Origin: a virus
Strand: one strand, 5' to 3'
Virus record (IMG/VR): IMGVR_UViG_3300017750_000056
Location: 1 to 30,781 of that record
Length of the DNA stretch: 30,781 nt
Each line of letters opens with the position of its first letter. Within the stretch, counting starts at the first letter, position 1. Under the pieces are notes generated by a model. That model did no database searches, was not told the origin of the DNA, and was given only the letters and a program-made list of their open reading frames with translations. The position numbers and the translations under genes were made by a program. This document shows positions 1 through 23,124 of this stretch, one piece after another.

Positions 1-354
1 AAAGACGGTAACATACTAAGCATGGGTTACAATGGCATGCCTTCGGGTATGGAAAACAATTGTAAAACAACTAATGGCGGTACTAAAGCTGAAGTAATTC
101 ACGCTGAAGCGAACGCCATATGTAAACTAGCCAAGAGCACAGGGTGTTCAGAGGGTGCAACACTATATTGTACCCTCGCTCCTTGTGTTGAATGTGCAAA
201 ACTAATACTGCAAAGTGGTATTAGTCGGGTAGTATTTTCTGATGCATACAAAGACGATTCAGGAACACTACTACTAATTCAGAACATTAAAGTAGATAGG
301 ACAAAGTATGCAAGCACAACTCCAATACCTAAAGGAGAAGATAAGAAAAGCTAA
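1..354 (+). CDS. dCMP/deoxycytidylate deaminase, 3' part (start outside the window)
   Basis: Zinc-dependent cytidine/deoxycytidylate deaminase family; in phages this enzyme usually converts dCMP to dUMP and feeds dTMP synthesis. The reading frame is open to position 1 (seven more codons before the first ATG at 22), and the residues there, ending SMGYNGMPSGMENNC, are interior family sequence, so the true start lies upstream. Visible hallmarks are the HAEANAI motif (zinc-binding His and catalytic Glu) and the PCVECAK zinc-binding Cys pair. The C-terminus overlaps the next gene by 47 bases, which suggests co-transcription with the RNA polymerase. The substrate is inferred from family context and was not tested. 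Confidence 0.88.
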   Translation, partial: KDGNILSMGYNGMPSGMENNCKTTNGGTKAEVIHAEANAICKLAKSTGCSEGATLYCTLAPCVECAKLILQSGISRVVFSDAYKDDSGTLLLIQNIKVDRTKYASTTPIPKGEDKKS

Positions 355-2500
355 AGCTCACATTGCTTGTAGTCTGCTAAAGTTAACATCTGACGCAGAC
401 CTCGAGGCTTACCTCGTGTTTACTATGGATACTATCCAGCAACACTTTACTCGTAATAGTATACGTGGAAACAAATCATACCAAGGTGAAGCCAACCTTA
501 CTCACTTGAGTACAACAATTGGCGAATATATTCTCGATGATATTAAATATTATCACGAGGATCAAGCACCTTGGGAATGGTTTAAGCTACGTGTAATGAT
601 GGGTGATCTGTTGCTGGAAGCATTCTATCAAACACACCAGATTAATATTGGTAAAAATAAAGATGATTCTTTTGTACCAATGGAAAGTCTGGATCGAGGA
701 TTAAAGAGAAGTCGCACACACTATATTGTTGTACCGGAACTATGGAATCTAATAGTGCCAGAAGGTTCTAAAGATTTGCTAGCCGGTACAACCTTTAGTA
801 AGCCTGAAGATATTTCACAACTCATGCAACCCACAGACAGACCTATAATAAAAGGCTGGACTGAACAAAGGAGTGGTGAGTTTAACCAGTATCTTTACCG
901 CGACTTTATTAAAAGCATGAATGTTCTGCAGCAAACTCCGTGGAAAATCAATACACAAATTCGAGATATTCTTTTACGTAATCGTGAAAAGATTATCGAT
1001 CAACATAAACACCTTCCCAAAAAGTATAAGTCTAAGATCATTGAGTTCGATCTGACAATGGCACGGTCCGCACTCATCGAAGACAATACTTTTTATCAGT
1101 ACACCGAAGCTGACTATCGTGGTCGGCTATACTACACAACCCCCTTCCTAAACTTTCAAAGTAATGATATTGCTCGAGGACAAATGCTATTTGCTAACGG
1201 TAAACTCATGACTGAGGAAGGCCTACGCAGATTAAAGATACACATTGCTAGCTGCTACAATCAAACTTATCATCGTGATGAGCTACCTGATTGGGTTACG
1301 GCAGACTACTTATCGTATCTTGAAGATGAAGGTTTGGATGATATATCAGTTGACAAGATGACACTGGTAGATCGTGAGGCATGGACTGATAACAATATAG
1401 ATATGCTAATGTCAATCGCAGCTGAGGAACGGATTGAACTAGCAGCTGAAAAACCTATTACACTTCTCGCTTGTGTATTAGAAATATACAATGCCATTAA
1501 TAGCGGGGGTGAATACTATACTTACTTACCGATCCCGGTAGATGGTAGCAACAACGGGTGGCAACACCTATGTGCTATGTCTAAAGACAAAGAAGCTGGT
1601 GAACTTGTAGGAGTAGTTCCGCAGGAGATCCAGAAAGACTTCTATGTACAGTGTGCTAAGAATCTTATTACAAGATTACCGGAGTGGTTCGACGAGCGCC
1701 AGATGCCCATGAAACATATACGTAAGGGTATCGCTAAGCGTGGATCAATGACCCGAGCATACAGTGCAGGTGCATCTAAGATAGCTGAGAACATGTATCT
1801 TGATTGTCACGTTGAAGGTTACTTAGATAGGTATAATATTACTGAAGAAGATTGTCGACTGCTTGCTAAGCATCTTGTTAAGTCAATTGATGAGGTATGC
1901 GCAGGTCCACTACAGACTATGAAGTTTTTACAAAAGATAGCTGAAGCTGAGATTGCTTCGGACTACGCTAAAGAAACCCAGCAGAAATCTATTAGATGGA
2001 CTACGCCTTCCGGCTTTCCAGTTATCTATGAAGCATTTATAGATAACGAGTTTAAAGAGAAAGCAACTATCAGTTGTACTGAGCGAAAGGTTAAGCCAGT
2101 AATTCGTAAGGAAGACGGTACTGAAGAAGAAACAGATACCATTCGTATCCAACATGTAGGTAAAGAAGCTACAGACAAACCAAAGATACGTTCCTTTATG
2201 TCAGGCATCTCACCAAACTTTGTACACTCAATGGATGCTGCACACATGGCTGCAGTAATTAAAGAATGGGGCAGTGACTTCGGTGCTGTTCATGATTCAT
2301 TTAGTGTACATGCGTGTGATGTTGACGACCTACTTCAAATCATTAAGGATAAGTTTGTAAGCATGTATGATTACCCTAATTACTTTGATGTAATAGAGCA
2401 CATGCTGATTACTAATCCAGATAACTTTAACTATGAACAACCAGGACTTGGAAGCCTGGAGATAAGAGAGGTGCAAGACAGTGACTACTTCTTCGCGTAA
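308..2500 (+). CDS. T7-type single-subunit DNA-directed RNA polymerase (730 aa)
   Basis: Phage-encoded RNA polymerase expected to transcribe middle or late phage genes. Visible motifs are DYRGR (residues 269-273), motif A with Asp412 in VDGSNNGWQH, motif B with Lys477 and Tyr485 in KRGSMTRAYS, the SPNFVHSMDAAH segment, and motif C with Asp663 in VHDSFS. The C-terminus ends DSDYFFA, matching the ESDFAFA 'foot' of T7 RNAP, so the 3' end is complete. T7 RNAP is 883 aa with DxxGR near 421-425, so the N-terminal domain here is about 150 residues shorter. That total size is close to the combined N4 RNAPII subunits. The Gly after the motif B Tyr in T7 is Ser here. Start: ATG 308 has a modest AGGA upstream; GTG 416 (GAGG 8 nt upstream) and ATG 425 are in-frame alternatives. 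Confidence 0.95.
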   Translation: MQAQLQYLKEKIRKAKAHIACSLLKLTSDADLEAYLVFTMDTIQQHFTRNSIRGNKSYQGEANLTHLSTTIGEYILDDIKYYHEDQAPWEWFKLRVMMGDLLLEAFYQTHQINIGKNKDDSFVPMESLDRGLKRSRTHYIVVPELWNLIVPEGSKDLLAGTTFSKPEDISQLMQPTDRPIIKGWTEQRSGEFNQYLYRDFIKSMNVLQQTPWKINTQIRDILLRNREKIIDQHKHLPKKYKSKIIEFDLTMARSALIEDNTFYQYTEADYRGRLYYTTPFLNFQSNDIARGQMLFANGKLMTEEGLRRLKIHIASCYNQTYHRDELPDWVTADYLSYLEDEGLDDISVDKMTLVDREAWTDNNIDMLMSIAAEERIELAAEKPITLLACVLEIYNAINSGGEYYTYLPIPVDGSNNGWQHLCAMSKDKEAGELVGVVPQEIQKDFYVQCAKNLITRLPEWFDERQMPMKHIRKGIAKRGSMTRAYSAGASKIAENMYLDCHVEGYLDRYNITEEDCRLLAKHLVKSIDEVCAGPLQTMKFLQKIAEAEIASDYAKETQQKSIRWTTPSGFPVIYEAFIDNEFKEKATISCTERKVKPVIRKEDGTEEETDTIRIQHVGKEATDKPKIRSFMSGISPNFVHSMDAAHMAAVIKEWGSDFGAVHDSFSVHACDVDDLLQIIKDKFVSMYDYPNYFDVIEHMLITNPDNFNYEQPGLGSLEIREVQDSDYFFA

Positions 2501-3174: not shown

Positions 3175-3223
3175 CCCCCTGAGTATACCGTAATGGTACG
3201 CTCAGGGGGTTTATTTTTTTTTT
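3175..3223. terminator. Bidirectional intrinsic terminator between convergent gene blocks
   Basis: The arms CCCCCTGAG and CTCAGGGGG form a 9-bp perfect GC-rich stem (3175-3183 with 3201-3209), continued after a 2-nt mismatch by TACC/GGTA around a short loop. A T-rich run (3210-3223) follows on the + strand. A matching A-run (3166-3173) lies on the other side and reads as a U-tract for transcripts on the - strand. It sits between the + strand stop at 3168 and the - strand stop at 3249, so it can end both blocks. Confidence 0.93.
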
Positions 3224-3248: not shown

Positions 3249-6200
3249 TTAAAGATCCATCTGTGTAAGGTTCTTATCAACTTGCGACAATACTTCTCGT
3301 TTATCTTTAGCAGTTACTGCGACTGCTTGTTTGTTTCTTTGACTGAGGTTCATAGTATTCTTAAGTGTCATAAGAATTCTTTGGATCTGACGCTTAGTGA
3401 ATACTGTATTGTCTACATCAATTCCCATATCAGCTAAGTCGTTTTCAAATTGAACAGCAGCTTCTTCACCTGCTATTTGAAGCTGGGCGGTGTACTGATC
3501 AATAGAAGTTCCCGGTGTCTTTGCCTTATGCTGAAGTGTCTTAGCTAAGAACTTACTTAAAACAAGATCACCTTGCTTAGTACGAGACAGTAGATATGCA
3601 AGTCCACGGTATGGTCCATCTTCATCCAGGTTTACTTTTTCATTAGGATCTGGAAGAGGAGCTGCAATTTTTTTCATGGTGTCATCAAACCATGTACCAG
3701 CTACTTCCTCTACATAACTGTGATCACGAATACCTTCGAACCAATTCTTGTTTGCTTCACGACGTACAGCAGCAAAGCTACCAAGGTCGGTAACAAACGC
3801 ATCAAAGATAGGTAGGACAAATGGTTTACCCTTAGCCGCTTGGCTGATACGTTCCCAAGACTGGCCCGATCCTGTGCGAGCAATCATATTTCCATCATAA
3901 GACTGCACTGAAACCGGAATAATACGACCCAGTGTCCATCCGCCTGGCCCAAGTTCTGGGCGTTCGGCTGATCCTTCCGCACGCTCTTTATAGAATTGAA
4001 CAGCAACCTTCTTACGACCACCTTCTTGATCCTTAAATTCAAAGGAGCTAGAGGTTGTAAGCTCAGGCGCCATTTGTTTACCAGCAGCATAACTACGGAA
4101 ACCCATAGCATTATCGAAGTAAAGTACCTCGTTACTGGCCATTGACATAACTGCATTAGCTTTAAGCAGCCTGCCCATAGCAACAACCTTTGGGTCCATG
4201 ATTTCAAAGATAGAATCAACCAGCATTGTATGGAGAAAGTCTACAGTATCATCAAGACTAATCTCACCAGCTACTGCTTCTTTCTTAATAGCATCTGCGG
4301 ATGGTCCAGAGTAAACTGTAGTTTCCACATGCTGCTTAAGCGATGGAATTTCCTGGCCATAACCCATAGTCATAGGCGACTTCTTAAGGAAGTTAGCTCT
4401 ATCTTTAATTGCAAGGTTAAGAATATTTGTAAAGTACGAAATCTGGTTAGCCGGATAAAGTGTACCCGCATAAGTACCAACAGTCGCCTGCATGTTTTCG
4501 CCCATAGCTTTTCGTGAATCAAGCCAATCTGTATTAGAAAAGTCTTGAGTTACGATAAGTCCTGTACGCTTGGCCATAGAAGATACACCAAGAATAGCAG
4601 CATTAGTAGCAGGTCCATGTGTTTTACCATCCATCTCAGCAGTAATTGTTGTTGAGAACTGCGCACCATCTTTACGAGCAGCATCATAGTTAGCCACTTC
4701 AATAAACAGGTTTGCAAACATTGGACCTTCGTCACCGTGCTTAGCTAGCTCGGCTTTCAGGTTTGCATCTAGTGGATCATTACTAAAGCGCTTTACAATA
4801 TCTTGTTTGATACCACGAACAGCATCAGGTGATTGAGCTTTACGAATAGCTTCAACTGCCTGCTTAGCACCATTAATATCAAAGTTATCACGTGCCTGCT
4901 TAAGTTGATTACCCCAAGCTACAAACTGATTCCACTGATCATTACCTATTGTCCGGTCAAATGTAGCCAGGCGTTCCTGAGTTGATAACTCCGTACCCTT
5001 AAATACTTTACCGTCTTTTTCAGCGGACAAAAGCAAGCCAGAAATAATCTCTTTCCAAGCAGCTTCAACTTCACCACCAGTATTTGGCTTCCACTTATAA
5101 ACATTTCCACCTCCTACAATAAACCTTAGGAACTTATGTGCCGCTGGATTATAAAGTGTTTGCTGCACATGAGTACGACCAGTGAGTGCTTGCATTGAAA
5201 ACGTAAGATGGTTAACCTCGTTTGAGTATTCAGCCGCAGCTCCAGCAATATTCAAAAACTTTTCACGGTTTGCCTGCAAAATCTTTTGTGGATTATAAGC
5301 TTGAGCTTCTCTAATGGCCGCCTCACGCGCATCAGGAAACGGAATACGCATAGCAGCATCCATCATGCGTTGCTTTTCACCTTCAAGTTCATTCAACTTA
5401 TCTAATCCGATACCATACATTCCAGCATAGGTTTGGTTATCTGGGTTGTTAGTATTGATTAGACCCAGCACTCCAAACATAAACGCTAGACGCTCACGCC
5501 CCGCATCATTTACATATGGAACACTGTGATAGTTCACCATTGATTCTTGAACTAGCGACCAATCTTTAAGGTCACCAACTTTTGTAGTAACCGGACGAAC
5601 CCTCATGCGGCCTTCAAACACAGGCTGAGCAGTCTCTGATACACCCTTAAGCGGTTTAACTTCAGGCTGCGCCATCAAACCTTTAAAGTCCTGGTTCAAT
5701 CTATCCAATTCAATAGCACCTTCTGGTGTCATCTGATAATAGACTTGACCACCTGAATCCACTTCACGCGTATCTCGATATACCATATCAGGATTCGCAC
5801 GAGCGTAAGTCTCTTTTGCAAGATCACCCAGGAAAATAAATGTTTCGGGTGAAATCTCGTCAATGTTTTGTAAATAATCATCAGTAGGTCTACCTTCGTT
5901 TACTGCACGCTGGCGCTTGTAAGCCATAAAGATTTCACGGCCAAGCCCCTGGTTACCTGTAGCTTTAGTAAATCGCTGACCACCCTGTTGTCCAGGTACA
6001 TAATCACCTGGCATACCGGTTTCTTCATCAATCTTACCAGCCATTTCAGTGGCAGCATCCATCTGTTGGTGCATCCATGCCTCAGTTGTAAGCGACATAA
6101 CCCGCCCAAAGTCTGGATCAATTGACATACGACCGGTTTCTTCATCGTATTTACCGGCATCAAGCATTCGCGGATCATACAGTAAAGACTGAACGCCCAC

Positions 6201-6737
6201 ATTAATAGTAGAGCCACGCAATGCAGGAGCTACTGGTACCTTGATATTACCCTCGGGATCTGTCGCAGAGAACGCAGCTTCAGGGAAGCCAGCTTGTAAT
6301 GTCTCTAGCTTCTTAGCGGTCATCTTAGAACCACCAACTTCCTCTGCCATAACAGCGGTAGTATTATCAGCACGCACCAGTGCGCTTTCCAAGGGCTGCG
6401 TATTTTGTACAGCACTTGGTGCAAGTGTAGTTCGCTTTAGTTTTTCTGTGTAAGCAGGCACTCTTTCCCGCTCGCGCTGCTCAGCTACCAAATCTGGGGC
6501 CGGAGTAGGTGCCTCAGGCATATCGATAGCGGGCATCTGGGCTTCCGTGGCAACCTCTGTAATCGGTTGAGTAAGAATTGCAGGAGCAGCAACTTCCGGA
6601 GCTGTGGTGGGCTCCGGTGTTACTGCTTGTTCTGGTACCGGAGTAGCCAAAATTTCTGCAAAATCGCTAACTTTACCCTCAGTCGGCATAGTGGGCTGAG
6701 CCCCAGGTATTACACTAGGTCCTGAAAATTTAGCCAT
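3249..6737 (-). CDS. Putative virion-packaged single-subunit RNA polymerase (N4 vRNAP-like, 1162 aa)
   Basis: Seen directly: motif B KKSPMTMGYG (Lys785, Tyr793, Gly794) lines up position for position with T7 KRSVMTLAYG (Lys631, Tyr639). Motif A is EMDGKTHGPATNAA with Asp703. Motif C is PIFDAFVTD with Asp979, where T7 has HDSF. A GR motif at 520-521 (LTGRTHVQQTLYNP) matches T7 RGRVYAVSMFNP. The order is canonical and the B-to-C spacing (194 residues) is near that of T7 (181). Residues 1-95 are Pro/Ala/Glu/Thr-rich and probably disordered; no N-terminal domain like that of T7 is evident. The length resembles the N4 mini-vRNAP core (about 1100 aa). It is the last gene of the internal-virion-protein block, with GGAGGATAG before its ATG. 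Family membership is fairly firm. Packaging and ejection with the DNA are inferred from position and from N4. Confidence 0.82.
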   Translation of the reverse strand: MAKFSGPSVIPGAQPTMPTEGKVSDFAEILATPVPEQAVTPEPTTAPEVAAPAILTQPITEVATEAQMPAIDMPEAPTPAPDLVAEQRERERVPAYTEKLKRTTLAPSAVQNTQPLESALVRADNTTAVMAEEVGGSKMTAKKLETLQAGFPEAAFSATDPEGNIKVPVAPALRGSTINVGVQSLLYDPRMLDAGKYDEETGRMSIDPDFGRVMSLTTEAWMHQQMDAATEMAGKIDEETGMPGDYVPGQQGGQRFTKATGNQGLGREIFMAYKRQRAVNEGRPTDDYLQNIDEISPETFIFLGDLAKETYARANPDMVYRDTREVDSGGQVYYQMTPEGAIELDRLNQDFKGLMAQPEVKPLKGVSETAQPVFEGRMRVRPVTTKVGDLKDWSLVQESMVNYHSVPYVNDAGRERLAFMFGVLGLINTNNPDNQTYAGMYGIGLDKLNELEGEKQRMMDAAMRIPFPDAREAAIREAQAYNPQKILQANREKFLNIAGAAAEYSNEVNHLTFSMQALTGRTHVQQTLYNPAAHKFLRFIVGGGNVYKWKPNTGGEVEAAWKEIISGLLLSAEKDGKVFKGTELSTQERLATFDRTIGNDQWNQFVAWGNQLKQARDNFDINGAKQAVEAIRKAQSPDAVRGIKQDIVKRFSNDPLDANLKAELAKHGDEGPMFANLFIEVANYDAARKDGAQFSTTITAEMDGKTHGPATNAAILGVSSMAKRTGLIVTQDFSNTDWLDSRKAMGENMQATVGTYAGTLYPANQISYFTNILNLAIKDRANFLKKSPMTMGYGQEIPSLKQHVETTVYSGPSADAIKKEAVAGEISLDDTVDFLHTMLVDSIFEIMDPKVVAMGRLLKANAVMSMASNEVLYFDNAMGFRSYAAGKQMAPELTTSSSFEFKDQEGGRKKVAVQFYKERAEGSAERPELGPGGWTLGRIIPVSVQSYDGNMIARTGSGQSWERISQAAKGKPFVLPIFDAFVTDLGSFAAVRREANKNWFEGIRDHSYVEEVAGTWFDDTMKKIAAPLPDPNEKVNLDEDGPYRGLAYLLSRTKQGDLVLSKFLAKTLQHKAKTPGTSIDQYTAQLQIAGEEAAVQFENDLADMGIDVDNTVFTKRQIQRILMTLKNTMNLSQRNKQAVAVTAKDKREVLSQVDKNLTQMDL

Positions 6738-6748
6738 GTGCTATCCTC

Positions 6749-9700
6749 CTATTCGAATGCGCTAGCGATTGTTCGGTTAAGTTGATTGAATGGTCCCACA
6801 AATGGGGCCGTCTTAAGTATATCATATACACCTTTCTCCGGTCTACCTTCAATGATTTTACCTGCACCACCGTAGACACGAGCCACGTTTGAAAGTGCAG
6901 CAGCCTCACCAGAGACCGTATTAAAGAACCACTCAGCTGCATTATCAGATGATGATTCATAAATAGGATAGATAAAGTTAAGAACGCGCTCACCAGTACC
7001 TAGCAATCCAGACGAACCAACAGCACGCTGAAGCTTTTCCATATCATCAAGATAAGGAGATGGCTCACCATACTTAAGTAGGTCTTTCAAATACTGAGAT
7101 ACAAATCCAAGCAAAAGCATTGTTGTCATAACAGCAAACACATTATACTTCATAGCTGGAGTACCACGCGCAACATACTCGCCCCACATCTTCGGTATTT
7201 GATTAGCAGTAAATGTAGAGATGAAACCCTGGAACTGCGTAAACAAAGCAAGATGCTGGTTCTGATAGAACAATGGACGGTTAGCAACACCTGGAAGTGC
7301 AATAGCCATATTAACAAAGTTAAACTCTGCCTCAAGCATCATAGCATCGAAGGCTGCAGTTTGTTCTGGTGACCAAGGCCCTGGCTGATATACCATAGCA
7401 AGCATATCATCTACATTAATACCGAGATTACGGAGATGCTCTTCAGATTCCTGCACTGCGTTAGTCTTCGGCTCACCGCTAACTCTTTGATCCTGAATCG
7501 TACTAAGGTGATTCATAATAAAGTCGTTAGCAATCGATGCCCGAATGCTACGCGTGTAGTCAGTCCACTGTTGCAATCCAATAATCTTAAAGTATTTATC
7601 TAGCAGATGACGTGATGCATGTGTATTTTCTGTAGCACCAGTAGTCTGTGCTGCACCAACATCCCAATCAAAGAAGCCAAGGCGTTTAATGTTTTCTTGC
7701 CTAGACTCTTTACCTACCTGTCGGTTTGTAGAGTTATAGCGAGGATCTGTTATAGTTCCCCATAATGCTTGCGCCATTTCTTTTGAAGCGTTACCAATAG
7801 TCTTGAAGACCATATCTTTTGGTAGTCCTACGGTTGTAATAGCTAGCTCAACAAACGATGAGATAGTAGCAAGAGGTAGACCAGCAATTGTAGTCCAGAT
7901 ACCAAGGTTCTTTTGAATGTTAGCAAGAGTACGGTTTTGCATACGCTTATAGTTACCCGACTCTGCATCTAGGTAGTCTTGCATTTGTGCTGCAACTTTA
8001 TTTACTTCTGCTGCAGGTACACCTTCTTCTAGCGCCTGATTTAACAGCTCATTTACTTTTGCATTATTATCACCAAGAAACTCTTGATATGTAATATAAC
8101 GAGATGCCGACTTAGCAGCATTAGATATATTAGTAAACGCATCTGACTCCATGAATTGTTTAAACTCAGGGTTTTCAGATAGATTAAGAGTACGACTGCG
8201 GTGTGCAGCAGGTATAAACCTACCTTGACCTACATTAAATGTGTCTTGTTCTCCCACCAATGTTTCTTGATTAAGAATATTATCAGTAAGTGTTTCAGCA
8301 TCAGTACGACTATAATTATAATTGTCCATTAGCTTTTGTATAAAACCATTACGATCTTTTTCAATAGCTACTTTATTAAAAGACTTATACTTAAATAAGT
8401 AGTTCTTTATATAGCCAAGAGGTGCAGGCTTATTATTCTTTTGAGCAGCAGCTACCTGATCATTATATAGTTTATCACTAAGCTTCATAGTTTGTTGATA
8501 GTATTGAGCGAGCCAGTTACGGTGCCGTCTAATATCTTCTGGAAGATTATCCCAGTCTATGCCTGCACTAGATTGATTACCTAGCCATGAACCAAACTTA
8601 TTAATAATGCTTGACAGCTCAGGCTGACTAATGGTTTTAAACCCAGCAGCTTGAGCAAACTCAGCTGGTGAGCTAACCATATTTCGGTATTCAGTTAGCA
8701 AATGTTTCTTACGGTTTTCAAAGTTTGAACCTGAAAATGTGCGCTGTAGATTACCACCAAAAGTATCAGCTAATATTCGCATAGCTCTTGAGCGATCTTG
8801 CAAACTTTCGTTAAAGATAAAACGTGTAGCGCCTCGCCATAAGCTAGGCACAGCCTGCCAAGTATCTTTTACTCTATCAAATACTGACCGCTCTAAATCA
8901 CGGCGGTTAGCTGCGTCAACCTTTTCTTGGAAGCTTGCACCCTGATTTCCCCGTGCCGTTACAGCTGTGCCTGCATCATCATTCAACTCCTGAATAGATT
9001 TAACTCTACCGAATTGCCGAACCTCTTCTTCAGCGCGTTGACCACGCTTAGATAAGCGCTTAGCTTCAGCAGGTGCTTGACGCACGGCAACATCGGCCCA
9101 GGCGCCGGCATCATATGCAATACCAGGAATAGAGAAGCCCGCACCTAAAGTACCACCAGCAATAGTAGCATTTAGTAGTCGGCTTTCAAGTTCAACTGCA
9201 TCAAACTCTTTATCACTGCCAAGTGTAGCAGCCATATAACCAGTTAGTTCTTGACCGGCTTCTGTTACAGCTTCGCCTGCCATACCTTTACTGGATGATG
9301 CAAGAAAGCTACGTAGTACATTACGCGATTTAAGTTGGCGCTTAGCAACTTCAGATGCTGCGCCAGCAAGGCTAGCCACTTCAAGTCGTGTAGCATTTGC
9401 TAGCATGTTCTTAGCAACAGTATCAGTAACACCATCACGTGCTACGATTGCAGCAACAGCGGCATCTCTGGTTTCTTTCTTAAGAATGCTTGCACCCTTC
9501 ATAATACCAAACAAACCGAGTCTATCAAGAGCGGCTTGCGTAACACCAGCAGCAATAGCTAGTCCAGCATTACGGTCTTCACCTTCCATCTCATTCCAGG
9601 TTTGTCCTGTATACATAGCGGCGGGTGACAGCATTGACACACCACCGGTAACCGGAGCAAGTACCGTACCAGCAATTGTGTTTGCCATATATGGTAATGA

Positions 9701-10666
9701 CACCGCAGCATTGTTACCGAGGTATTGAAAGAATTCACCAACACTGTCGATATCCCATTCATTACCTGTAACATTACCATCTTTGTCTACAATAGGCTTT
9801 AGTGCACTTAGTTTTAGCTCAGGCTTAGATGCCAGAAAAGCACGCTGACGTGCTACTCCGGCTTCACCTAATTCTTCTGCCCAGTTCCAGCCAGTGGTTT
9901 CACCAACCATTTCTGCAACACCGTACATACTTTCAATAACACCAGTCAAACCTACATCAAAGCTTTCGCTTAGTGGATTAACCGCTTTATTTTCTAGCGT
10001 ACGATCTAGGCTACGTACCTGTACACCAGCATCAATAAACTTATTAGCCTCAGCCATTCGGCGAGCATACATTGCTGCAGTTTCACCCGGCTGCTGAGGT
10101 GCATTTAATCTTGCTAGTGCTCGTTCGTTTAGTGCAGTCTGCTTGAACTCTTGCTCATACCGCATTTCATCGGTAGTAGCTTGCTCAATAGCTTGACCTG
10201 CTTTTTCCCAGTCATTAAGAGGTTGATCAAGTTTACTAGCACGCTCAGCCATTCCCAGCTTAGCTGTAATAACTTCGTTGTTTGTACTGTACGCACCAAC
10301 CTCATTAATACCGTGCCTAGTTAGTTGTTCTGTAAAGTCACGACCAACTTTGTCTTTAATCCGTACCATCTGACGAGTCCCAGTGGCATCCATCATAGGA
10401 GTGCCATCTGGGTTCGTAAGATACTGTACATTATTAAAGCCAAACTTATTAGCCAAGGCCATGATTTCTTCAGTAGCTGCCATACCACCGGCGGTTCCAG
10501 GGTCAAGTCCTGTAGCCGTTACGTGTGCAAGCTCAGCTGCTTCTAAGCCTTGGATACGGAGTAGGTTACCCTCATCATTCCTTAGTGTATCCGCGTCAGC
10601 AAAGGTGTGTCCTCCACTACCTGCTAGGTCGGTACTTACTTGGAACAATGCGTCAAAGTCACCCAT
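6749..10666 (-). CDS. Large internal/ejection protein with N-terminal SNase-like domain and gp16-like C-terminus (1305 aa)
   Basis: Probable internal virion protein ejected into the host. Residues about 20-130 resemble the staphylococcal nuclease fold: DADT (24-27) for DGDT, RIQGLEAAE (37-45) for RLLLVDTPE, and KVGRDF (106-111) for KYGRGL. These place Arg37, Glu45 and Arg109 at the catalytic positions Arg35, Glu43 and Arg87 of SNase. The middle is long and mainly helical, with Gly/Ala-rich hydrophobic stretches (for example AGTVLAPVTGGVSMLSPAA). Near the C-terminus come FQGFISTFTANQIPKMW and a hydrophobic segment at about 1176-1199, recalling the C-terminal part of T7 gp16-like internal proteins. 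The stop codon is fused with the next gene's Shine-Dalgarno (TAGGAGG). Its own GGAGA lies upstream of ATG 10666. Structural role likely; nuclease activity inferred. Confidence 0.8.
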   Translation of the reverse strand: MGDFDALFQVSTDLAGSGGHTFADADTLRNDEGNLLRIQGLEAAELAHVTATGLDPGTAGGMAATEEIMALANKFGFNNVQYLTNPDGTPMMDATGTRQMVRIKDKVGRDFTEQLTRHGINEVGAYSTNNEVITAKLGMAERASKLDQPLNDWEKAGQAIEQATTDEMRYEQEFKQTALNERALARLNAPQQPGETAAMYARRMAEANKFIDAGVQVRSLDRTLENKAVNPLSESFDVGLTGVIESMYGVAEMVGETTGWNWAEELGEAGVARQRAFLASKPELKLSALKPIVDKDGNVTGNEWDIDSVGEFFQYLGNNAAVSLPYMANTIAGTVLAPVTGGVSMLSPAAMYTGQTWNEMEGEDRNAGLAIAAGVTQAALDRLGLFGIMKGASILKKETRDAAVAAIVARDGVTDTVAKNMLANATRLEVASLAGAASEVAKRQLKSRNVLRSFLASSSKGMAGEAVTEAGQELTGYMAATLGSDKEFDAVELESRLLNATIAGGTLGAGFSIPGIAYDAGAWADVAVRQAPAEAKRLSKRGQRAEEEVRQFGRVKSIQELNDDAGTAVTARGNQGASFQEKVDAANRRDLERSVFDRVKDTWQAVPSLWRGATRFIFNESLQDRSRAMRILADTFGGNLQRTFSGSNFENRKKHLLTEYRNMVSSPAEFAQAAGFKTISQPELSSIINKFGSWLGNQSSAGIDWDNLPEDIRRHRNWLAQYYQQTMKLSDKLYNDQVAAAQKNNKPAPLGYIKNYLFKYKSFNKVAIEKDRNGFIQKLMDNYNYSRTDAETLTDNILNQETLVGEQDTFNVGQGRFIPAAHRSRTLNLSENPEFKQFMESDAFTNISNAAKSASRYITYQEFLGDNNAKVNELLNQALEEGVPAAEVNKVAAQMQDYLDAESGNYKRMQNRTLANIQKNLGIWTTIAGLPLATISSFVELAITTVGLPKDMVFKTIGNASKEMAQALWGTITDPRYNSTNRQVGKESRQENIKRLGFFDWDVGAAQTTGATENTHASRHLLDKYFKIIGLQQWTDYTRSIRASIANDFIMNHLSTIQDQRVSGEPKTNAVQESEEHLRNLGINVDDMLAMVYQPGPWSPEQTAAFDAMMLEAEFNFVNMAIALPGVANRPLFYQNQHLALFTQFQGFISTFTANQIPKMWGEYVARGTPAMKYNVFAVMTTMLLLGFVSQYLKDLLKYGEPSPYLDDMEKLQRAVGSSGLLGTGERVLNFIYPIYESSSDNAAEWFFNTVSGEAAALSNVARVYGGAGKIIEGRPEKGVYDILKTAPFVGPFNQLNRTIASAFE

Positions 10667-10675
10667 AGCAATCTC

Positions 10676-13600
10676 CTATTCAGTTGGTAAGTTTAGTTGC
10701 TCTTTAGCATACGCATAAAAGGCTGTCTCGCCAGGTAGCGCACGCTTCTGATACTGCTGTACAATGTCAGGGGTTTCAGATACCTTTTTATTCCATATCT
10801 CAGCCGCCTTAGTCCAGAACATATTAACAGCATCACGGTTTGCACCGTCGCTAATCTTACCTGTTCCACCAGCCCGCTTCAAGAATTGCAGGCTAAGCTC
10901 CTCAACTTTTACAGCATCCATTGGTACTTCTGCACCATCTTTTGTTGTAGTCGTAAAGAGATTACCAACACCGGTATCTTGGCGTAGCTTTAGCTGATTT
11001 AGATATGGCAACAATGATTCAGGCTTAACTTCATTTTCACCGCCAGCTTGCTGAACTGCCATACGATATGCTTGTTCAACATACGTATTCATTGATGCAA
11101 CATCAAGGCCATTTTTAGCAGCCCATTCTGCAGCTTCCATTGCAGCATTCGTTGGTGTAATGTTAGTCTTTTGGGTACGAGCCCGACCTGCTTTTGAATC
11201 ACCAGGAACTACATCACCAATTGAGGTTGATAGTTCTTTGATTGAATCTCTAAGCAGCGGTACCTCAACACGAATACGATCGTTGAATTCGTCAGTACCC
11301 TTATGCCTTGAAGCTTCCTGAGTCCATGAAGCAGGGATGGCTGTCTTACCACCGTCTGCAGACCAGATATGCCCATCACCAACCTTAAACTTCTCGGCTT
11401 GAATGCGCTTACCACTTGGACTATACCACATTTCTTTTGTACCGGTCGGGTTAATAGCTGGTCCAAGCTTCATAAGTACACTAGCATCCTTAGTCTTCTT
11501 ATATTCTTGAATAGACTTAGGTGTATACTTACCATCATTGATTAGCTTTTTAACTTGTGCGCTATGCTCAGCAGCCTTAGCATCTACTCGTGTAAGGTAT
11601 TGCTTTGCTGCCCAGTTAAGCGAACCACCGTGTGAGCCGCCCATAAGCCGTGAACCTGCATACAAAATAGCCATACGCTTTAGCTCACCCTTATCAAACA
11701 AGTCACCAAAGATGCCTTGTAAGAATGATTCGGCTTGCTCAGTTTTTTCTTGACCCTCAGCACCTGCTTTAACAACAGCCTTTGAAGCATCCGCCGTGGT
11801 TGTACCATCAGCAGATCCATCATTGATACTTTCAATATCTTTAGTGATTGCTGTAAGCACTTCACTTTTCTTAGTAGCGTTTTCAGATGTCGTAGTTCCG
11901 TCGCCTTGCTCTCCAATATCGGTATCAGTGTCAATATTCTGACGCTGCTTCCAAGTATCAAAGTCTGGAAAGTCAGTAACTCCAGATGCTTCAGCAATAC
12001 GCTTAGCCTCTTCATAGTCAGCGGTCAAGGTTTTACGTGCAGCTGTTGCTTCTTCTAATCGTTTTGCTTCAGCGGCAGCTGCTTCATCAGCTTCTACCTT
12101 AGTAACCTGAGTCGTTTGACCCCTGTTTTGTGCAATAGCAGTAGCTGTATCAGAAGATACTTGCCCTGTTTCTGCTACTTCTTTTGTAGCTTTTTCTTGC
12201 AAGGTTACGGCATCAGCAGCTAATTGATCAACCGTCTTTTCATACGGCTTTACAATTTTACTCGGGTCAGCATCTGCTGTTTCAAGTAGCCCGGCTTGTT
12301 GCTGTGTAAAAGTATCTTGCACACCAGCGGGCGCCGGGTGACCATAAGAGTTTAATAGCCTACCGTATTTATCAACAGTATAAACGATATTAGAACTAGG
12401 ATCAAGATAAGTTGTTCCCTCTGCGGGAAGCTGAGACTTTTGCTCCGGCTTAGGAGGTGCTGCTGTATCAGGAACACGATTACCTTTACCAGTATCTAAA
12501 AACTCACCTGATCCGCGGGAGCCGCTAGGTAAATTGCTAGTTGGCATTGGCACAGCATCAGCAGTACCCTCACCTGTAAGAGGAGACTCTTGATTATTAA
12601 GATTCGCGGCAACCAAACCTGTTGCAGGATCTTTTGCCAAAGAGCCATCTGCTTTAATCCGATACCACTTTCCACCTTCTTTTTGATAGTTATCTGTTTT
12701 ACCAAACTTATTAATACTGCGTACCTCGGGGGTAACAACAGGGGCTGGTACATCAGGTACTTTAGGTATTGGAGGAGTAGAGGCTGTAAGCATAGCTGCT
12801 TCATTTGCAGCAGCATCCTCAGCAATAGCTGAATCCCTACGCATCTTTTGCATCATCTGAATTTCTTCAGCATGACGAGCGGCATCATAGTTAGTTCCGC
12901 CTTCTTCAAGAACTTCATCGCCAACATACATACCAGTATTCGCGGTTGCTTGTTGTGCAAGTTTCTTTAGTGCATCAAACTGCGCAGCATAGTTATCATC
13001 TTCAACTACGCCACCAGGCGCTTTATATTGTGCCTGTGCAGCAGCTAGCATATCCGCAATGGTACTAGTAACAGGCATTTCTTGGCCAGTCATTGCTGTC
13101 ATTACAGGAGTGCGACTAGTCTCAGGGACTGCAGGCTTAGGTATGGGCATTGATTGAGAAGCCGGTACATCATCAGCCGTAGCTGCTTGTGCTTCAGTTG
13201 TCCCAAACATTCCAAGAATACTCGCAAGCATTGTAGGCTCTTCATCTGCTTTATAATTCATAGCATAATCTACACGCCTATCAAGATGCGCTTTATCAGG
13301 ATTAGCTTTTTCATATCCTTCTAAAAAGATTTTAGCTGCATCAGCTGGTGACTTAGCTGCATTCATTGCAGTACGCACATCACCAAATGCTTCAGAGTTA
13401 TTCATTTCAGCAAGCATAAAGTCTAGCTGTACTTCAGGATCTCGCCAACTTTTTTCCTGCTTAGCAGCAAAGTCTACAAGATTAAGTGGGTCCGTATCAA
13501 AGCGACCGCCCTTTTCCCATTGAGCAAGTCCTCTACCTTTACCGGTTTTACCGCTATCTAGTTTTTGTTTTGCATCAGGATCAAGCTTTGATTCAGCGTA

Positions 13601-14005
13601 AAAGTTACCCATAATTCCACGAGCAGCTGTATCAGTAAAGCCACGGTCCTTAAGCATTTTATAAAGCTGGTCAGCTTCTAGCGCAGGAATGTCTGGCATC
13701 TTTGGTTTAGGTTTTGGCAAACTAACTGGTCCGCCATCAGCAGAGTACTCAGGAATAGTTCCACCCTGCGCAGCCTGCATAGCACGACCCTTATCATTCA
13801 TTGCTTCAATCTGCGGTTCAAACATACGCACAGCTTCTGCGTTCATTACAAACTCACCTGGCGTAAGCCAAGCTGGTACAGTATCAGTCCCTTTTGGTGA
13901 GCCAGGATGCTCTGGAATCATTGACATTTCCGGTACGGAGGTATCAAATTCAATAGAGAACATATTACCATAGCGGTCCTTTTGTTCAAACTTTTTGAGT
14001 TTCAT
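10676..14005 (-). CDS. Internal virion protein with phage tail-lysozyme domain (1109 aa)
   Basis: Large virion-associated protein probably involved in cell-wall penetration during DNA entry. Residues about 108-250 resemble the Phage_lysozyme2/tail lysozyme family: IMGNFYAESKLDPDA with Glu138 as the likely acid, then GRGLAQWEKGGRF and VQLDFMLAEM. Before it, residues 39-55 contain GTDTVPAWLTPGEFVMN, a segment that recurs in virion proteins of many marine phages. After residue 250 the protein is low in complexity, Ala/Glu/Thr/Pro-rich, with a coiled-coil-like part and a folded C-terminal third. Start: ATG 14005 is chosen because GGAGG lies 6 nt upstream; a GTG one codon earlier is possible. The ATG overlaps the upstream gene's stop (TGATG). 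It is followed by the 1305-aa ejection protein, which fits a gp15/gp16-like set. Confidence 0.8.
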   Translation of the reverse strand: MKLKKFEQKDRYGNMFSIEFDTSVPEMSMIPEHPGSPKGTDTVPAWLTPGEFVMNAEAVRMFEPQIEAMNDKGRAMQAAQGGTIPEYSADGGPVSLPKPKPKMPDIPALEADQLYKMLKDRGFTDTAARGIMGNFYAESKLDPDAKQKLDSGKTGKGRGLAQWEKGGRFDTDPLNLVDFAAKQEKSWRDPEVQLDFMLAEMNNSEAFGDVRTAMNAAKSPADAAKIFLEGYEKANPDKAHLDRRVDYAMNYKADEEPTMLASILGMFGTTEAQAATADDVPASQSMPIPKPAVPETSRTPVMTAMTGQEMPVTSTIADMLAAAQAQYKAPGGVVEDDNYAAQFDALKKLAQQATANTGMYVGDEVLEEGGTNYDAARHAEEIQMMQKMRRDSAIAEDAAANEAAMLTASTPPIPKVPDVPAPVVTPEVRSINKFGKTDNYQKEGGKWYRIKADGSLAKDPATGLVAANLNNQESPLTGEGTADAVPMPTSNLPSGSRGSGEFLDTGKGNRVPDTAAPPKPEQKSQLPAEGTTYLDPSSNIVYTVDKYGRLLNSYGHPAPAGVQDTFTQQQAGLLETADADPSKIVKPYEKTVDQLAADAVTLQEKATKEVAETGQVSSDTATAIAQNRGQTTQVTKVEADEAAAAEAKRLEEATAARKTLTADYEEAKRIAEASGVTDFPDFDTWKQRQNIDTDTDIGEQGDGTTTSENATKKSEVLTAITKDIESINDGSADGTTTADASKAVVKAGAEGQEKTEQAESFLQGIFGDLFDKGELKRMAILYAGSRLMGGSHGGSLNWAAKQYLTRVDAKAAEHSAQVKKLINDGKYTPKSIQEYKKTKDASVLMKLGPAINPTGTKEMWYSPSGKRIQAEKFKVGDGHIWSADGGKTAIPASWTQEASRHKGTDEFNDRIRVEVPLLRDSIKELSTSIGDVVPGDSKAGRARTQKTNITPTNAAMEAAEWAAKNGLDVASMNTYVEQAYRMAVQQAGGENEVKPESLLPYLNQLKLRQDTGVGNLFTTTTKDGAEVPMDAVKVEELSLQFLKRAGGTGKISDGANRDAVNMFWTKAAEIWNKKVSETPDIVQQYQKRALPGETAFYAYAKEQLNLPTE

Positions 14006-15420
14006 CACTTGCCTCCACTTGATTCGTTACCGGACGGTTCATCGTATTCATCTTCCATGCCGTAGATAGTTGTTCCTGCTTGTGAGCCTCTGCCTTCTGA
14101 AACTCCCGTAGAACTTGTTTGATATGAACCACCTTGCCCATCACTTACGGTAAAGCCTGACATGCTGCCCTGGCCGTCGTTTTCTCCGGCCCTTAAGGAT
14201 AATTCTTGATTAGCCCTAAGCTGCGTAGCCGGATTGTTACTAAGCAAACTAATATTTTCGCCAGGTCTTGTACTATCACTAATCGATACAACAGTGCCAG
14301 TAGGGGTTTCAATAGTTCCGGATTCATTACGAACCCCAAACTGTCCCCCTTCTAGCGCAACAATATCTCCAGTTTGCGTACCAAACTTACCGCTAATGTT
14401 ACTTGGTGCTGGTCTATCGCCAGTAAACCCTAGCTGTGTAGCAGTAATCGGTGTGCCCTCTACTCGATCAATGTCATCATCTGACAAACCAGTATAATCA
14501 CCCGCTGCTATTTGGGTATTCATATTAATAAGATCTGCAACCGTTCCCATTGGTGCGCCTTCACCGCGCATACGGGCGGCTCGTGCACCTGCAATGTTTA
14601 GGGTTGGATCAAGATCCATTTGTTTGTATACTGAGTTATCATAGCTACCTAATGCAGAACTAATAACGCCTTCTCCAGCGTCTCTTAGTTTACTGTAGCC
14701 ACCACCAATGGTGCTCATTGCAGCCGACGGACTAGCATAAGATGCAACAGCTCGACCTGTAATTGGATCATATGCGCGACCTTCGGGGCCAAACACATTA
14801 CCCTGTGCATCATAAGTGCCATAGCTACCATAAGTATACTCATCATTTATACCCATAGCGTTTGACAAAAAGCTACCGCCTGGAATTGCAGCAAGTGCTA
14901 ATCCTAGCGGGTTTTGTGTGCCTCGAGTATAACCTAGTCCCTGGGCTTGTGGAATTCTAGAGCTTGCATAATCAAATCCACCATTATCATCACCGCCTGC
15001 TTGTTGCATTGCTGCAACTACGGGGTCTGCACCAGACGGTGGGGGTGTAGTTGTTGGCGGAACACCCGGAGCAGCTGGTGGAGAACCCACTGGCGGATAT
15101 TCGCCAGGTGGTAAATCTCTAAACCCAACACCTTGCTGTTGCTGACCGTTAACTATTGCGCCTTGTTGTGCAAAGGGGTCTTGGTTAAATGCAAGAGTTT
15201 GTGTAGTTTGTACACCAGTTGTGGCTCCTACCGCGCCCGCAGTTTGTTGTTGACCCGCTTGGCCTGGTACACCAGCACCAACGGTTGCTACAGCAGGTGT
15301 AGTTGTACCTAGTGTTTGTGGACTAGCTGATGCAGTCGCAGGAGCAAACTGAGAAGGGCCGTAACGTGTGCCATACTTAGGTTGTAGGCTGTACGTTGAT
15401 TGATATGGAACTGTAGCCAT
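14005..15420 (-). CDS. Putative virion structural protein, 471 aa, low complexity
   Basis: Not recognised as a family. The N-terminal 150 residues are rich in Gln, Pro, Gly, Ala and Thr (for example PGQAGQQQTAGAVGAT and PPTTTPPPSGADP) and probably disordered. Later segments contain YGSYGTYDAQGNVFGPEGRA and a Gly/Ser-rich C-terminus. No enzyme motif or clear membrane segment. GGGGGTAT precedes the ATG, and the gene lies between internal-protein genes with a 2-base gap from the 140-aa gene and a 1-base overlap with the 1109-aa gene. A structural or internal virion role is inferred only from this context. Confidence 0.7.
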   Translation of the reverse strand: MATVPYQSTYSLQPKYGTRYGPSQFAPATASASPQTLGTTTPAVATVGAGVPGQAGQQQTAGAVGATTGVQTTQTLAFNQDPFAQQGAIVNGQQQQGVGFRDLPPGEYPPVGSPPAAPGVPPTTTPPPSGADPVVAAMQQAGGDDNGGFDYASSRIPQAQGLGYTRGTQNPLGLALAAIPGGSFLSNAMGINDEYTYGSYGTYDAQGNVFGPEGRAYDPITGRAVASYASPSAAMSTIGGGYSKLRDAGEGVISSALGSYDNSVYKQMDLDPTLNIAGARAARMRGEGAPMGTVADLINMNTQIAAGDYTGLSDDDIDRVEGTPITATQLGFTGDRPAPSNISGKFGTQTGDIVALEGGQFGVRNESGTIETPTGTVVSISDSTRPGENISLLSNNPATQLRANQELSLRAGENDGQGSMSGFTVSDGQGGSYQTSSTGVSEGRGSQAGTTIYGMEDEYDEPSGNESSGGK

Positions 15421-23079: not shown

Positions 23080-23115
23080 CCTCTATAAGTTAAGTATACC
23101 TTCCTCTTATAGGGG
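23080..23115 (-). promoter_or_regulatory. Inverted repeat covering the RNR ribosome binding site
   Basis: On the - strand, CCCCTATAAG (23115-23106) and CTTATAGAGG (23089-23080) pair at 9 of 10 positions around a 16-nt loop. The GAGG of the RNR Shine-Dalgarno is inside the stem. It occupies nearly all of the 54-nt gap between the lysozyme and RNR genes. A translational switch is inferred. On the + strand the same arm reads TATAGGGG, which also looks like a phage promoter core, though it would point away from RNR. Confidence 0.4.
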
Positions 23116-23124
23116 ACATTTAAT

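Follow-up and report, generated by a model that had tools for sequence, protein, structure and literature searches.

The analysed window is a stretch of 30,781 nucleotides, positions 1 to 30,781 of the viral record IMGVR_UViG_3300017750_000056, and it carries a gene for a T7-like RNA polymerase (P0005) that converges on a gene for a second protein, P0001, which lies at the end of a block of internal virion proteins (Table 1). A sequence-only reading of this DNA had placed a 1162-aa frame at 3249-6737; an open frame with exactly these limits is present on the minus strand, which the reading had left unstated, and AGGAGG stands 5' of its ATG. The same reading was silent on P0005, the second, conventional polymerase, which matches Pfam RNA_pol (E 1.6e-57) and phrog_414 (E 1.2e-99). 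Between the two convergent genes, a stem-loop has the look of an intrinsic terminator that would act in both directions. An Rfam search of the whole window gave no match.

Table 1. Features of the window around the two polymerase genes, with residue correspondences to N4 and T7.
Feature	Position	Strand	Remarks
P0005, T7-like single-subunit RNA polymerase	308..2500	plus	730 aa, 10 cysteines; convergent to P0001
Stem-loop between the P0005 and P0001 genes	3175..3209		flanked by A and T runs; read by eye
P0001, stand-alone vRNAP-type single-subunit RNA polymerase	3249..6737	minus	1162 aa, 0 cysteine
P0001 motif C, residues 977-980, IFDA	3798..3809	minus	D979 = N4 D951 = T7 D812
P0001 motif B, residues 785-794, KKSPMTMGYG	4356..4385	minus	K785/Y793 = N4 K670/Y678 = T7 K631/Y639
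P0001 motif A, residues 701-709, EMDGKTHGP	4611..4637	minus	D703 = N4 D559 = T7 D537
P0001 GR motif, residues 520-521	5175..5180	minus	R521 = N4 R424 = T7 R425
P0002, internal/ejection-type virion protein	6749..10666	minus	1305 aa, 0 cysteine; phrog_6958
P0003, internal/ejection-type protein	10676..14008	minus	1110 aa, 0 cysteine; phage tail lysozyme domain PF18013, E 2.7e-30
Protein of the same internal-protein block	14005..15420	minus	471 aa, cysteine-free; without family match
Perfect copy of TTAAAYGTCYCCTWWAAGA, promoter-like	23105..23123	minus	upstream of ribonucleotide reductase gene

The neighbour of P0001, P0002, matches the virion structural protein family phrog_6958 (E 2.6e-29) and is related to the 'phage particle protein' of LUZ24-like phages; it had been described as gp16-like, of which the virion structural assignment stands, P0002 being at most a putative counterpart of T7 gp16, and the lysozyme domain lies in the next gene, P0003. 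P0002 was also considered as a detached C-terminal domain of an N4-type virion RNA polymerase (vRNAP). Its profile of 29 members scored 25.5 against 13 N4-type C-terminal parts and 21.3 against the N-terminal 1000 residues of N4 vRNAP, and the idea of a split vRNAP was rejected. Comparison of 70 loci bears out the claim that P0001 ends the internal-protein block: the P0002-type gene is the upstream neighbour of the vRNAP gene in 56, the T7-like RNAP gene is convergent to it in 64, with the remaining six running out of sequence, and there are no counter-examples to the synteny. The P0001 gene adjoins those for internal virion proteins in a late-direction block, as expected of an N4-type vRNAP. 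It is also a gene of its own, as had been proposed, all 54 complete relatives falling within 1162-1599 aa, and the family represents a group of marine phages with both a compact vRNAP and a T7-like RNAP.

P0001 is easily missed, as the sequence-only reading had anticipated, because neither Pfam nor the PDB gives a match by sequence: a Pfam search returned 0 families up to E 1, RNA_pol (PF00940) included, and PDB searches with the single sequence and with a profile found nothing. Comparisons with single sequences by hhalign and BLASTP were below significance; phrog_414 'RNA polymerase' matches P0001 at E 2.1e-7, as it does 11 of 20 family members. The profile-profile comparison with N4 vRNAP that had been suggested at the outset was positive. 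A 35-sequence profile of the P0001 family matched 17 N4-like vRNAPs over residues 185-1048 (E 1.5e-15, probability 98.5) and matched eight T7-like RNAPs more weakly (E 2.2e-6), with scores of 150.4 and 65.7 respectively, the N4-like profile having been built from more sequences (17 vs 8); column-shuffled controls (n=50) peaked at 23.8 against the N4-vRNAP score. Motif A of P0001 matches the published vRNAP motif ExDGxxxG, which occurs in 35/35 of the P0001 family and 17/17 N4-like vRNAPs but in 0/8 T7-like RNAPs, and E701, D703, G704 and G708 are invariant throughout 20 aligned relatives (set A1), whose loci were found without using motif A. A motif tree separates the T7-like enzymes from the P0001 family and N4-like vRNAPs with a support of 100, although, with only 87 columns, it is weak taken alone.

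The other suggested check, a predicted-structure comparison, agrees: the P0001 model has the fold of a single-subunit RNA polymerase (ssRNAP) across residues 76-1161, aligning to residues 24-883 of T7 RNAP (8dh0_N; VIA Z 19.5, rmsd 5.1 over 546) and superposing on N4 2po4 (VIA Z 18.4, rmsd 9.0 over 777). Model confidence is low at 731-737 and 793-795, close to motif B, and in some 80 Pro/Glu/Ala-rich residues at the N-terminus. Such an N-terminal extension had been foreseen, but the core had been put at 350-1162, and that boundary gives way to a full-length ssRNAP at about 76-1161. Given the profile, motif and structural matches, it is practically certain that P0001 is an ssRNAP of the N4-vRNAP type.

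All five catalytic sites named in the earlier reading (GR at 520-521, D703, K785/Y793 and D979) lie at the residues it had given, and R521, D703, K785, Y793 and D979 align and are identical with the catalytic residues of both N4 and T7. They are invariant in all 20 sequences of set A1, down to 31% identity, and in 35/35 non-redundant relatives, down to about 25% identity; the latter figure is partly built in, because relatives were searched with motif A and motif B peptides, but the invariance of R521 and D979 owes nothing to those patterns. Such constancy speaks against P0001 being an RNAP-derived ejection protein that has lost catalysis and serves DNA entry only. That reading draws on the fast divergence of the family (32-70% identity vs 76-88% for the T7-like RNAP, best segments, in 27 first-scan loci with both genes, near-identical ones left out), and we regard it as very unlikely. 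Judged by its conserved residues, P0001 is very likely to be catalytically active.

Cysteine is nearly absent from these proteins. The P0001 family contains two in 45,167 residues, 33 of its 35 proteins having none, and the middle parts of the 17 N4-like vRNAPs have none in 28,521 residues, whereas each of 32 convergent T7-like RNAPs examined has 9-14. Among T7 proteins known to be ejected, gp15 (747 aa) and gp16 (1318 aa) lack cysteine and gp14 has one; T7 RNAP has 12. In contig G001, a near relative, five of the 14 ORFs of at least 300 aa are without cysteine, namely the vRNAP gene, its three neighbours and a single 369-aa ORF, and because of the last the trait is not exclusive to the internal-protein block. 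Absence of cysteine and a place in the internal-protein block strongly suggest that P0001 is packaged, although both traits tell of the proteins with which it is grouped rather than of packaging itself. The gene also sits in a late-direction operon, as would be expected if P0001 were a second RNAP that stays out of the virion and acts inside the cell late in the cycle, transcribing late genes or priming replication, with its position at the end of the block reflecting late expression only. That account is improbable: a near-zero cysteine content is common to N4 vRNAP, T7 gp15/gp16 and the adjacent internal proteins, the T7-like RNAPs of the same genomes do hold cysteines, the nearest kin of P0001 are packaged enzymes and its place next to a virion structural protein is constant. 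From composition and gene order, we infer with high confidence that P0001 is packaged in the virion and ejected.

The copy of TTAAAYGTCYCCTWWAAGA in the window is a putative promoter that would drive the operon ending with the P0001 gene. Shuffled sequences give a mean of 0.01, but the copy is not independent, because the relatives used to define the motif include the close relative G001. Copies point both ways in 65 of the 74 regions having enough sequence; since the same motif thus faces the early block and the late genes, its presence before the early block lends no support to P0001 as the starter. Apart from the motif, conservation in 36 aligned leaders is largely confined to an AT tract and a CCCCCTA element. 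Both observations favour a variant of our preferred explanation, compatible with it, in which the two polymerases share TTAAAYGTCYCCTWWAAGA promoters and early genes have no promoter class of their own, the packaged enzyme firing first from the divergent pair and the T7-like RNAP amplifying this initial pulse. We consider this rather unlikely, given that P0001 and the T7-like RNAP are only distantly related, that the promoters of N4 vRNAP and N4 RNAPII are described as different (PMC4496689), and that CCCCCTA could itself be a second promoter class.

TTAAAYGTCYCCTWWAAGA is a linear repeated motif, some copies of which can form a short central stem, and a hairpin scan found one such stem at 23102-23116. 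Copies with CCTTAAAG or CCTAAAAG, read by eye, lose it. N4-style hairpin promoters were rejected, as such hairpins are in no excess over shuffles: in the early regions of contigs G001, G002 and G003, those with a stem of at least 6 and a loop of 3-5 numbered 2, 2 and 2 against shuffle means of 2.5, 2.0 and 2.2, and those with a stem of at least 5 and a loop of 3 numbered 0, 1 and 2 against 2.5, 1.7 and 1.7. Of nine residues with which N4 vRNAP contacts the promoter hairpin, two lie outside the alignment to the P0001 family and seven align to other residues, although the aligned positions vary among N4-like vRNAPs as well. Sigma-70 promoters in the G001 early leader numbered two against 5.7 expected, by a consensus that may not be the host's.

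The occurrence of P0001 beside an ordinary phage RNAP suggests that the polymerase which starts transcription is delivered to the host cell by the virus itself. We think it likely that P0001 is an N4-type vRNAP cut down to its polymerase domain, which is packaged, ejected and used as the early starter, with the T7-like RNAP acting late; its role in starting early transcription, taken by itself, is probable. P0001 would be made late and packed in the capsid alongside the internal proteins, to be ejected via the tail channel, either ahead of the DNA or together with it. It would then transcribe the early block, near whose end the P0005 gene lies, and P0005 would in turn act on TTAAAYGTCYCCTWWAAGA promoters to transcribe the late operon, the vRNAP gene that supplies P0001 for the next virions among it. 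Whether the packaged compact vRNAP early and the T7-like RNAP for the rest dispense with host RNA polymerase altogether is a closer call, to which we give slightly less than an even chance. If true, infection would proceed by a two-step relay with a single-subunit enzyme at each step, and packaging, ejection and early transcription would all be possible without the extra 2300 residues of the N4 enzyme.

The giant vRNAP has been called unique to Schitoviridae, and its size treated as characteristic (PMC12633501; PMC7650795). A 2023 survey of IMG/VR discarded every vRNAP-like protein of <2,500 aa (PMC10654107), a cut-off that would remove proteins of P0001's length. Among the open-access literature matches listed, by title and opening of the abstract, none reports a stand-alone vRNAP outside Schitoviridae. 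A polymerase-only vRNAP in marine phages amounts to a natural experiment on the function of the terminal domains of the N4 enzyme, be it ejection, membrane anchoring or autoinhibition; the family also offers a small single-subunit enzyme to study and raises the question of phages independent of host RNA polymerase.

Of known systems, N4 gp50 is the closest profile match to P0001, with the same catalytic residues, an ExDGxxxG motif A and no cysteine, and its gene likewise comes last in a block on the minus strand that holds the virion proteins gp51 and gp52 and faces plus-strand genes. It differs in its length of 3500 aa, which includes a lipid-binding domain at the N-terminus and a large one at the C-terminus (PMC12633501) where P0001 has the polymerase only, in hairpin-contact residues that the P0001 family does not keep, and in its partner, the gp15/gp16 RNAPII rather than one T7-like RNAP. 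Reference vRNAPs are given as 2,842-3,820 aa (PMC10654107), and the giant size with N- and C-terminal domains is not seen in the P0001 family. Schitoviridae genomes are described as 59-80 kb long, with three RNAP genes, one of them for a vRNAP of ~3500 aa (PMC7650795); here two RNAP genes (P0005, P0001) are seen, the vRNAP being the shorter kind, and contigs whose ends carry direct repeats (77 and 55 bases) measure 58.0 and 58.1 kb, just under that range. T7 RNAP and its Autographiviridae relatives share the fold and aligned catalytic residues of P0001, but match its profile less well, lack the Glu of ExDGxxxG in motif A and, in T7, contain cysteine; the enzyme of T7 kind in the window is P0005, P0001 failing to match PF00940.

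P0001 matches no phage record, but a cultured counterpart may exist in Roseobacter phage CRP-7 (MK613349), the nearest cultured phage seen, whose gp33 occupies the same slot after gp35 and gp34, the latter related to P0002 at 22.6%, and converges on the T7-like RNAP gp30, from which two small genes separate it. This protein has 1235 aa, no cysteine, motif A- and C-like stretches, and an LYG accompanied by Arg where motif B has Lys, a pattern conserved in relatives. Its profile scored 20.6 against the P0001 family, below significance, and against N4 gave a short motif C match only (probability 8.9, E 0.0037); its AlphaFold2 model (pLDDT 37.5) was unusable for fold comparison, a further homologue scan returned the same nine contigs only, and gp33 is only a candidate homologue. 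In Shigella phage pSb-1, an ORF of 1453 aa was considered as a stand-alone vRNAP but proved to belong to a giant vRNAP that extends over three adjacent ORFs. The putative vRNAP of podophage StenR_269 and the large proteins of Zobellviridae resemble P0001 in being large and cysteine-free, but their proposal, as presented in PMC10747016, rested on size, cysteine lack and helix content rather than on homology or motifs, whereas for P0001 homology to vRNAPs has been shown.

The predicted P0001 frame exists in the 30,781-base virus record that forms the window. It lies on the minus strand, with AGGAGG ahead of its ATG, and closes a block of minus-strand genes. The sequence-only reading was right that the gene adjoins a block of virion proteins, but it left unmentioned the convergent T7-like RNA polymerase gene P0005, which faces P0001 and is followed by small frames.

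Features of the window and of related loci
Feature	Location	Strand	Remarks
P0001	3249-6737	minus	open frame, 1162 aa
P0002	upstream of P0001, same direction	minus	1305 aa; phrog_6958 virion structural protein
P0003	upstream of P0001, same direction	minus	1110 aa; phage tail lysozyme domain
P0006	upstream of P0001, same direction	minus	471 aa
P0005	308-2500	plus	T7-like RNA polymerase of the conventional kind; matches Pfam RNA_pol at E 1.6e-57
Strong stem-loop flanked by A and T runs	3175-3209, between P0001 and P0005		read by eye
Ribonucleotide reductase gene	window 21322-23070	minus
TTAAAYGTCYCCTWWAAGA, perfect copy	window 23105-23123	minus	0.01 expected from shuffles
Divergent TTAAAYGTCYCCTWWAAGA pair	L148 7115-7160		between late and early blocks
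CCCCCTA element, after AT tract	L148 ~7281-7312		early leader; kept among 36 leaders
First early-side gene of G001	L148:7898-8434
NADAR-like PF08719	L097 residues 1038-1143 (L097:5174-9589)		E 2.1e-4, under gathering score
NADAR-like PF08719	L122 residues 1405-1510 (L122:5415-10214)		E 7.7e-4, under gathering score
CRP-7 gp33	L035:22941-26648		1235 aa

Pfam and PDB sequence searches with P0001 were blank, and its family's match to N4 was not significant against single sequences; among PHROGs, the RNA polymerase family phrog_414 matches P0001 (E 2.1e-7) and 11 of 20 family members, and phrog_2206 'virion RNA polymerase' matches one of the 20 (E 6.2e-5). Relatives down to ~25% identity came from a first scan (32 loci) and a profile scan (70 loci), overlapping sets in which some loci are near-duplicates and one (L001/L072) is 100% identical to the window in P0001; the 70 loci and the window gave 58 sequences (at least 1000 aa, with the 3' end), and these 35 non-redundant ones. 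The proposed motif residues R521, D703, K785, Y793 and D979 are invariant in all 35, the conservation of motifs A and B being partly selected because the 70-locus scan employed peptides from both, which did not select R521 or D979; the scan behind the 20-sequence alignment used six patterns, none in motif A and one in motif B. The five residues pair with catalytic residues R424, D559, K670, Y678 and D951 of N4 in the profile alignment, and with R425, D537, K631, Y639 and D812 of T7 in a separate alignment run.

An AlphaFold2 model of P0001 from the 20-row alignment (mean pLDDT 76.9, pTM 0.73; pLDDT <50 at residues 1-80, 230-253, 731-737 and 793-795) had 71 Foldseek matches in the PDB at E <=0.001, the best 50 of which were all T7, mitochondrial or N4 RNA polymerases; the best E was 1.2e-12, and the isolated N4 domain 9pnq gave 3.9e-12. 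VIA gave Z 19.5 to T7 8dh0_N (546 residues, rmsd 5.1) and Z 18.4 to N4 2po4 (777 residues, rmsd 9.0); on fold alone, the model is roughly as close to T7 as to mitochondrial and N4 enzymes. Instead of a catalytic core behind a long foreign extension, the model is a predicted polymerase spanning nearly the whole chain: the alignment to 8dh0_N pairs model residues 77-1161 with T7 24-883.

Profile comparison with hhalign matched the 35-sequence profile to 17 N4-like vRNAP polymerase domains (probability 98.5, E 1.5e-15, score 150.4) in one colinear run over residues 185-1048, and to eight T7-like RNAPs with probability 89.1, E 2.2e-6 and score 65.7; as a yardstick, the T7-like and N4-like profiles score 129.2 against each other, and 50 column-shuffled N4 alignments scored <=23.8. 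The smaller 20-row alignment gave E 1.1e-11 against N4. ExDGxxxG, the motif for recognising vRNAPs in a survey of N4-like viruses (PMC10654107), is present at motif A in 35/35 of the P0001 family, 17/17 N4-like and 0/8 T7-like sequences. A tree of 87 motif columns, given little weight because these are few, groups the P0001 family (support 99) and splits T7-like sequences from all others (support 100), while N4-like sequences form no clade of their own. Judged from its sequence, P0001 is a real, conserved N4-type vRNAP domain present as a separate gene and paired with a T7-like RNAP.

Its stand-alone status extends to the family, since all 54 complete ORFs among the 70 loci encode 1162-1599 aa (median 1237). 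The convergent downstream T7-like RNAP gene is present in 64/70 loci, the six exceptions having <=467 bases left, and a P0002 homologue lies upstream on the same strand in 56/70 (14 exceptions, <=2 bases left); there are no counter-examples to this synteny among the 70. P0005 and P0001 have diverged at unequal rates: best-segment identity is 76-88% for P0005 and 32-70% for P0001 (27 first-scan loci with both, not near-identical), and in a more distant clade ~50% versus 25-31%. In a second clade (G003, G004, G005; L105, L124, L119) the ~50% identity of P0005 homologues begins only from residue 238, the N-terminal part in these three contigs having diverged. Of five longer vRNAP homologues that were scanned, two have a NADAR-like domain, at different places; it may be an effector that enters the cell together with the polymerase.

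Cysteine content separates the two enzymes. The P0001 family has two cysteines in 45,167 residues (none in 33/35), and 52 of 54 complete ORFs lack cysteine, as do 28/29 P0002 homologues (one in 39,892 residues) and 12/12 P0003 homologues, versus 9-14 in each of 32/32 convergent T7-like RNAPs. The middle parts of the 17 N4-like vRNAPs have none in 28,521 residues, N4 gp50 none in all 3500, and N4 gp51 and gp52 none; among T7 controls, the ejected gp15 (747 aa) and gp16 (1318 aa) have none, ejected gp14 (196 aa) one and the RNAP 12. In the near relative G001, 5/14 ORFs of at least 300 aa are cysteine-free, namely the P0001 homologue, its three neighbours and a 369-aa ORF, at a guess the major capsid protein; the P0001-type block plus one ORF accounts for 4/17 in G002 (373 aa) and 6/16 in G003 (368 aa). 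P0005 thus has ten cysteines and P0001, of the same fold and in the same genome, none, a difference best explained if P0001 passes outside the cytoplasm. Its neighbours and lack of cysteine are indirect signs, which strongly suggest a function in the virion.

Repeats in contigs G001-G003 yielded a promoter-like motif, TTAAAYGTCYCCTWWAAGA, at intergenic places. The window copy, not independent since relatives served to define the motif, precedes the ribonucleotide reductase gene and hence the operon ending in P0001; that gene, first after the motif, sits inside the structural block. The large ORF downstream of a divergent motif pair is, by position, a putative terminase; a Pfam search of it gave no match. 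At least 150 bases lie upstream of it in 74/80 loci, and 65 of these 74 regions have TTAAAYGTCYCCTWWAAGA in both directions (<=4 mismatches, within 260 bases), against 0/1480 shuffles; the nine with neither direction are the nine loci with 65-68% identity in this ORF. Because TTAAAYGTCYCCTWWAAGA resembles T7 promoters to our eye, these putative promoters are tentatively assigned to P0005. Early and late blocks we infer from orientation and content. Short hairpins showed no excess in the early regions of G001-G003. Apart from TTAAAYGTCYCCTWWAAGA, the conserved parts of 36 aligned leaders consist mainly of an AT tract and, after it, a CCCCCTA element; the latter may be an origin or the early promoter that is otherwise missing. 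The first early-side gene of G001 resembles the Enc34 ssDNA-binding protein, at an E of 0.0028 that falls short of the cut-off; the likeness is of interest since N4 vRNAP requires host SSB (PMC4496689).

Phage records held no match to P0001. Judged by P0005 and gene order, Roseobacter phage CRP-7 is the closest phage in culture (RNAP identity 34.7%); its description notes RNAP ORF30 and a podovirus shape (PMC6918029). The cysteine-free CRP-7 gp33 occupies the same slot as P0001 and has LYG and IHDA where motifs B and C would be expected; it is a candidate homologue only, homology to the P0001 family not being significant. Among 84,980 genomes of bacteria and archaea, a pattern scan returned a single relative, L237 (NZIO01000029.1), a 15.6-kb contig, likely phage, binned in a Candidatus Pelagibacter MAG, which is a weak hint of Pelagibacter as host. 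The group is probably marine, judging from this contig, CRP-7 and our reading of the neighbours.

N4 late genes use host RNA polymerase. N4 early genes are transcribed by the ejected vRNAP and encode RNAPII (PMC12633501; PMC4496689). By analogy, P0001 would start the early block, near whose end the T7-like RNAP gene lies, and P0005 would then read the late operon. Host RNA polymerase may not be needed. The N4 vRNAP has a C-terminal domain that represses the enzyme and an N-terminal domain that binds lipid (PMC12633501), but neither was found in P0001, so any anchoring would have to be supplied by P0002 or P0003. The P0001 family falls outside Schitoviridae on the size of the vRNAP and on gene content.
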